The notes beneath the pieces were generated by a model. It ran no database searches. It was not told where the DNA came from and was given only the letters and a program-made list of their open reading frames with translations. A stretch of DNA of 64,000 bases. Source: Thamnaconus septentrionalis (taxonomy: Eukaryota > Chordata > Actinopteri > Tetraodontiformes > Monacanthidae). The DNA lies in the NCBI GenBank assembly GCA_009823395.1, contig CM020510.1:18024273-18088272 (forward strand). The letters run 5' to 3'. Within the stretch, counting starts at the first letter, position 1. Every line of letters begins with the position of its first letter. Positions 49,701 through 52,700 of the stretch are shown one piece after another. The translations under genes were made by a program, and so were the position numbers.

Positions 49701-52700
49701 CTGTATGAGGAACTGACGCACCGTCTTCAAGGGGATCTTCTCCAGGTTCATCTTGCGACCTTTCACCTTCAGCAGCCCTATGTGCCTGCATACACGGAGA
49801 CGGTTGGGCTGCGTTGTCAATTTGAAGTCGACGCAGGTTTGGAATTACACGGTGCTTTTTCTGCTTCAGTGTGCTCACTTTATACCCAGCTCAGCAGTTT
49901 GACTGAGGCAAATCAAATAAAAGCTACGCCAAACCCTGTGAGATACCAGCTTCTCCTGACAGAGATCAAGGACTTGTGACTTATTACTTAGATGGGACAG
50001 TGCATATTGATGAACATTGAGCACATGATTACTCACTGTAAATATACCGGACTTAGCACTGCTGCTAAATATCATCCGTAGTCCCCGACAATACAACAAT
50101 TGTCATAAGAAGTACAACTGACATAAAAACTACAACAACAAAATACAACAATTGACATAAAAAGTCCATAAACATTCACACATAAATAATAACTATGCCT
50201 ACATTCTTGCGCACGTATCGGTCATAGCTATTACATAGCTAGACTATTGCACACGCACCAGCCATAGACACACAGCTGCACACGCGAGACTGACCCAGAC
50301 CAAACACGGTTACAGGTGCTCACAGGTTTGTTTGTCTAGTAGCCAGTCTGTAAGTCGTGCTTTAAAAGTCCTAAAAGTCGGACACTCTCTCATATTAGGA
50401 GGTAGCTTGTTCCATTCTAGACATCCTTGGATTGACAACATGTTTAGAGAAAATGTTGTAAATTGTACCTCACAGTGCCCTCTTGTGGTAGCTCTGGCCC
50501 CTATACCCTTATCTGGTTGTTTTTTTATGTACTCTTCCAGGGGTGGTGAGTTCAGGCCATGTAGAGATTTATAGATTGCACATACATTTTTAAAATACTT
50601 CAGATTTTTGAAAGTAAAAAAAAAAACATTTTACCAGGATGTTGCAGTGATGATACGAATGTGTCCTTTTATCAAGTACCTTAAGGGCTCCTTAAGGTAC
50701 TTGAGTCCAATTGTGGGAAAATATAATGTTTTCATGTTCTTTAACAGTTTTTCCAGGTACAATTCAGTAAGAAACTGGATGAGGAGCTGCATCTAAATAT
50801 GACTGAGAAACTAATGGAGTTTCCTCGTGGAGGATTTATATCACGCTAACATGCAACATGTTCAGGTCAGAGCCTCGATCGAACCACAGCCTGCAAAGAA
50901 CAAACACATCTCAGGTCAACGTGTGGATGGATGCTGTTTGTCTTACTTCTTGGTAGCCTCTCCAGGGGACAGGGAGGTGGCTACAGAGCTGCCAGGCTGC
51001 GTCACGTAGAAGAGCTGCTGCTCGTTCCTGGTTGGCGTTATCAGGCACTCGTGTTCATGACCCCACACCACCAAATCGAGAAAGTCGTCCAGGAACTGCT
51101 CAGGAATGTAGTTCGTGGGTCCATGCTTGCTCCTGTAGGTGCAAAAAAGTTTGTGTTTTTTTTAATTTGAACAACAGAAAACATGAAGAAGGGGAAAAAA
51201 AATCAGAACATTAAGAAGAGTTGAAGGACTTGGTGTTAAAATTCTTGGTGTTTCTGCACAACAAAATGTTCAGTTTCTTGGCATGGCTCTCATTGACATG
51301 GTTCAACACGCACATGATGGAAGCACACACCTGTTTTGATGAATAGCAAAGAGGTTAAACCAGTCATCTTGGTCTTCTTTAGGGCGAAGCATGGTGACCT
51401 GGTTGTTGACAAACATCCTGTACAAGCGCTCATCTGGAATAGAGCCTGGGATAAACCCAGAAAAACTGGAATTGAGACCACAATTCCCTTTTACAGGTAC
51501 TACCCGAAAAATTAGAATATCAAGTAAAAGTTGTTTTATTTTGGCAATTTAACATAAAAGATGAAACCAACACATTTTATTGAGCCATTACACGCAAATT
51601 GACATATCTCAAGCAGTTCCTTTTTGTAACTTTGCTGATTAAGATTTTCATAAAGATTTGACTTTATGTAACATTCTAATTTTCTGAATTTTTGAATTTA
51701 AGGTTTTTTTTAAGTTGCAAGAACTGATCAGCAAAATCCAAAGAAATAAAAACTTGAAATATATTGATTTGCATATTATTCGTTTATATAATATGTCACA
51801 TTCACCCTTTAAGTTGAATTGCAGAAATACTACAACCTTTTCAGGATATTCTAATTTTCTGGGTAGTACCTTTATATGGACAATTTAGAGCAAAGAGCAA
51901 AGACTTCACATACTCACCCAGACCATACAGAGCCAGCTTGGTGTTGCCCTTCTGCATGAGAACAGGACTGATCTCTATCTTTTCCACAGAGTGGGAGTGA
52001 CCAAAGTGATTTATAAGGCCGGAAGCGCTTGAGCAGATCCAATGCACACAAACCTTCAGCCTGAAAAAAAAAGGTGAAAAAAGTAAAAGTGTCATCACAT
52101 AAAAGGAGCAAACGCAAACCCCTTTGCTTTGTTTGTGTCATCACTCACCCCGGTTGGGTCATCGTGGTTTCCATGTATGCTGAACACAGGTATGGAGATG
52201 TTGAGATTCTCATCCTGATAGTTTACCCAGGGGAACCTACAAAACACGTAATGAGACAATTAACCTGCAGAATTAGCACAGAGAAATAACAAAAGCTGCA
52301 GAGGAAACTGACTGTGTGGTGTTGAAGTTGACTGTCTGGTCACTGAGTATGTTGAATTGTATGGGCGAGTCTCCCATGCAGTATTTTCTCAACAGTGTGA
52401 TGCAGTTGTGGAGGCACCGGCGAGAGGGTTTGTTGTCATGGAACAGATCGCCACCCAGCAGGATTAAATCAACCTGGGAACAAAATAAATAACGTGCATA
52501 TTTACAAATGACAAAAAACAACAACCCTGTAATTAGTAAATCAGTACTCCTTCTGACCCCTAAACCCATTTTCCTACCTGCATAGATTTTGCACAGTTCA
52601 GGATCTCATCCAAGGTGTTGTACGAGTCACCGCCTCGGATAGCATCCTTCTCCATGTAGCCGAGGTGAATGTCCGTAGCCAGCAAGATCTTAAACGTATC

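Follow-up and report, generated by a model that had tools for sequence, protein, structure and literature searches.

The window analyzed here, a 64,000-nucleotide stretch of Thamnaconus septentrionalis DNA, carries mre11 on its minus strand (46762..52867), adjoining cep57 on its plus strand (55082..58589). The mre11 coding region, defined by our exon table and by the protein record P0003, which matches both of its frame pieces from residue 8, retains its introns and comprises 19 coding exons that run from an ATG at 52867 to a stop at 46762, with GT-AG at every internal border. Its total coding length as written is 2104 nt, i.e., a multiple of three plus one. According to the exon table, coding exon 4 (52149..52236, minus strand) ends in phase 0 with GNHDDPTG, which we take to be nuclease motif III, and this motif was present in 120 of 120 MRE11 proteins (the best 120 of 4205). 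A preliminary description of this DNA had stated that the nuclease motif ahead of the break is intact and that the later mre11 exons are well kept; exon 4 ends as described, and the exon table contains no second frame break in the other 18 exons.

The irregularity lies in coding exon 5 (51918..52060, minus strand), which is bordered by an acceptor ending in tttttcag and a gtgagt donor. As previously proposed, this exon measures 143 nt where 142 would fit, given that exon 4 ends in phase 0 and exon 6 requires exon 5 to end in phase 1. Its first frame gives 10 MRE11 residues from the acceptor, followed by unrelated residues without a stop inside the exon; when this reading was compared with solved structures, four matches were obtained up to an E value of 10, none of them MRE11, as expected for the wrong frame. 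The MRE11 frame resumes at 52029, and the resumed piece by itself matches the MRE11A chain 3t1i_A with an E value of 7.4e-13, which excludes chance. Both frame readings and a tblastn comparison of P0003 with the window locate the change in reading frame, a net +1, at 52029..52031 (minus strand), in agreement with the earlier placement near 52030-52031: residues 129 to 138 of P0003 lie on 52060..52031, and residue 139 onward is read from 52029. The exact extra base within 52029..52031 is not uniquely placeable by sequence alone. Long-read indels are commonest in long homopolymers; the site lies outside any of these, a point against an indel error. Intron 5 holds an imperfect inverted repeat (window 51487-51879; arms of 153 nt, 71% complementary and 87 nt apart) that is separated from exon 5 by 38 bases and presumably resembles a MITE-type element.

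Translated as written, the remainder of exon 5 has no stop in the shifted frame, which terminates in exon 6 (51331..51445, minus strand; exon table) and yields a 186-residue product; the capping domain and the nuclease motifs further along would be missing from it. A stop in exon 6 of 19, many exons ahead of the last junction, is expected to lead to nonsense-mediated decay. When the 186-residue reading was used as a protein query, 422 of 461 candidates matched at E ≤ 0.001; among the best 120, which were listed, the top match came from Labrus bergylta (88% identical across 74% of the query), whereas a shifted product from the same species should have ranked at the top. No 5-residue word of the shifted tail was shared by any of these matches (0/120, the best 120 of 422) or by the MRE11 proteins found with the post-break piece (0/120, the best 120 of 4205). 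The same was true of all 360 database proteins P0003 to P0362, which comprise 120 each from the searches with the post-break piece, cep57 (an irrelevant set) and the 186-residue product; the window's own translation, P0001, alone has such a word. Given mRNA decay and the clustering of the database, the absence of a shifted product is a weak argument.

The top match to the post-break piece was P0003, a 694-residue record with the source tag "lgn," 4 member sequences and 2 contigs. It consists of an initial Met, piece A of the window from residue 8 (137/137 identical) and piece B (556/556), with nothing between them. All of the compared residues, which cover exons 2 to 19, are thus identical to the window (693/693), and the record reads straight through the break. 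P0003 has the continuous reading frame of an MRE11 ortholog, whereas the window's mre11, with its net +1 in exon 5, does not. The precomputed domains of P0003 are PF00149 and PF04152, the metallophosphoesterase and Mre11 DNA-binding (capping) domains, and the conserved nuclease motifs, WGHEHEC included, are all present. The initial Met stands at window Leu 7, a TTG codon spanning the junction of exons 1 and 2, so that exon 1 is left out of the record; this Met would be explained by a bacterial-style gene caller that takes TTG as a start.

Since the longest P0003 contig is 2575 nt and exons 2 to 19 span 5.9 kb of the window, P0003 almost certainly derives from spliced RNA, although a gene copy lacking introns is formally possible. 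The "lgn" tag probably marks contigs built from public read data. The complete identity between P0003 and the window indicates that the two come from one species or from very closely related ones, and we infer that the record represents spliced RNA of the same species. The next listed proteins, from Chelmon rostratus and Morone saxatilis, were 83% and 84% identical, respectively, a gap that is uninformative on species because clustering of the database at 90% identity may hide closer relatives behind P0003. To judge from these comparisons, an intact mRNA of the window's mre11, from the same or a very close species, is on record.

To place the gene among its homologs, we used the best 120 of 4205 MRE11-like proteins, a set that includes P0003 and, for some species, two isoforms. 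Counted from behind NHDDPTG up to the exon's end, the stretch is 47 residues long in 119 of these 120 listed proteins (118 counted by script, plus P0010, counted by eye because the pattern missed its IYGLG). The exception is isoform X2 of Enoplosus armatus MRE11 (P0059), which is annotated without the initial 23 codons of the stretch and retains 24 residues; its shortening is consistent with an internal acceptor. The five motifs tested were all kept in the window's MRE11. Over the first 395 residues, the protein has a single private change in columns that are otherwise invariant (the median of the 120 proteins is 0, and the maximum is 6), and the mean identity of P0003 to the other listed proteins is 0.895 relative to a median of 0.917, which ranks it 9th from the lowest of the 120. 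These values suggest that the filefish MRE11 lineage evolves slightly faster, albeit not like a dead gene, and that the protein is under what appears to be normal constraint. The window gene shares with teleost MRE11 the 47-codon exon 5 stretch, conserved motifs that include WGHEHEC, and full-length homology, and, P0003 aside, it is 76 to 84% identical to the listed proteins; in contrast, the extra exon 5 base is present in the window and absent from P0003. The single disabling change and the kept constraint, with just the one private change noted above, rule out an old pseudogene, a reading that the preliminary description had likewise rejected.

As a control, we examined the neighboring cep57 gene, which was matched to P0123 from Nelusetta ayraudi. 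Over the stitched query, the two were 96% identical, and the next listed protein was at 59%; the window's cep57 is close to that of Nelusetta, a genus of Monacanthidae and presumably a filefish, without being identical to it (the alignment contains substitutions). No frame change was present inside any of the ten stretches matching P0123 (residues 7 to 475), and the sole alignment gap falls where one match extends past an exon into an intron. Since cep57 and the other 18 mre11 exons are unbroken, the assembly is not visibly error-rich here, which counts against an indel error in exon 5.

Weighing all of this, we consider the extra base very probably a one-base indel error in the assembly. The animal would have an ordinary working filefish mre11, and the genome sequence would have gained a surplus base in coding exon 5 through a sequencing or assembly error that is absent from the animal's gene. 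The intact P0003 record and the lack of a listed shifted product favor this reading, as do the one-base size of the defect, the canonical internal borders and the five kept motifs, and we infer an error here, not an allele. The preliminary description had left the choice between an indel in the assembly and a recent null allele; the former gains from a P0003 record that reads through the break with 693/693 identity, while the latter has no positive evidence. We regard as unlikely, though well short of negligible, a recent loss-of-function allele for which the sequenced fish is heterozygous, or which is segregating, with the assembler having kept the null haplotype. Such an allele would fit a clean single-base change in a gene that, together with its neighborhood, is otherwise well kept, and wild animals do carry nulls of essential genes in the heterozygous state. 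Fish with one null copy of rad50, a partner gene, are viable as well: PMC10129005 describes heterozygous rad50 medaka that lived about one year, with tumors in 8/10. The same source gives homozygous mre11a mutation as embryonic lethal in mice, and PMC10079969, citing another study, mentions that homozygous zebrafish mre11a mutants fail before adulthood. By these accounts, the earlier statement that the gene is essential in vertebrates is right in substance, and a homozygous null adult is therefore unlikely, whereas a heterozygote is possible. Against a null allele stand the intact P0003 record, with no difference over the 693 compared residues, and the lack of a listed record of the shifted product, the latter being a weak test because such an mRNA may decay and the database is clustered at 90%. 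Since the source of P0003 may be a different individual or a very closely related species, the sequenced fish could still carry a null allele; if it did, the reference fish would be a natural heterozygous carrier for an ataxia-telangiectasia-like repair defect in a filefish population. These probabilities, and those that follow, are our judgements rather than computed values.

A cryptic acceptor within exon 5 could remove the broken stretch in frame and produce a shortened MRE11; when the internal AG and GT dinucleotides of the exon were listed with their frame outcomes, frame-keeping sites were indeed found, e.g., an acceptor after exon base 109, TCCTGTTCTCATGCAG, which leaves 34 nt, and the Enoplosus armatus isoform lacking 23 codons (P0059) provides an annotated case of partial exon use. 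Nevertheless, splicing of this kind would delete 36 residues, most of which are strongly conserved (column counts over 82 proteins), P0003 keeps all 47 codons, and the window has no AG where the Enoplosus isoform, judged from its protein only, would splice. We therefore hold splicing rescue to be very improbable. Correction of the frame by the ribosome or by RNA editing, such as a programmed +1 frameshift, has a single point in its favor, namely the conservation of the frame beyond the break; yet 119 of the 120 listed MRE11 proteins show no extra base to correct, P0003 is read without it, and to our knowledge the site contains no stop codon or known frameshift signal. The chance of such recoding seems to us vanishingly small, and we rate just as low the chance that the window copy is a young, decaying duplicate and that P0003 stems from a second, intact copy. 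The identity of P0003 to the window at 693/693 residues over exons 2 to 19 would make such a duplicate extremely recent, and the locus has introns and lies beside cep57.

An assembly indel, the reading that we prefer, has precedents. Passages of PMC9516821 document false frameshift indels in coding exons of earlier vertebrate assemblies and report annotation with false one- and two-base introns. As in the window, a coding exon there contains a small indel although the gene is otherwise intact, and an intact record contradicts the indel; these cases differ in that the candidates in PMC9516821 were tested by read mapping, whereas the window case rests on sequence comparison. Long-read errors are also said, in PMC12007338, which concerns small genomes, to introduce frameshifts, and a title cited in PMC10886137 refers to a Nanopore and Hi-C assembly of Thamnaconus septentrionalis. 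The locus calls for caution, in that automatic annotation could call mre11 lost or truncated, or could invent a tiny intron, in a lineage with a working gene. Before a repair gene is declared lost on the basis of one assembly, transcripts or reads need to be checked; here, a single transcript-like record already argues against mre11 loss, and loss of this essential gene is not supported.

Elsewhere in the window, Pfam comparison of ten neighboring open reading frames left four of the ten without a family. An open frame of 326 residues from stop to stop (window 23754-24734, plus strand) had no Pfam match and is perhaps, as a guess, the last exon of a cytokine receptor gene such as il10ra; a 146-residue open frame at window 62165-62605 (minus strand), also without a Pfam match, has a coiled-coil-like, Q-rich look. 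Two serine protease genes, at window 9167-10736 (minus strand) and 40658-44239 (plus strand), both gave a Trypsin match. The latter also matched SRCR_2 above the cut-off, and weakly matched SRCR and LDL-receptor class A below their cut-offs, and from their domain order we take both genes to be of the TMPRSS type.
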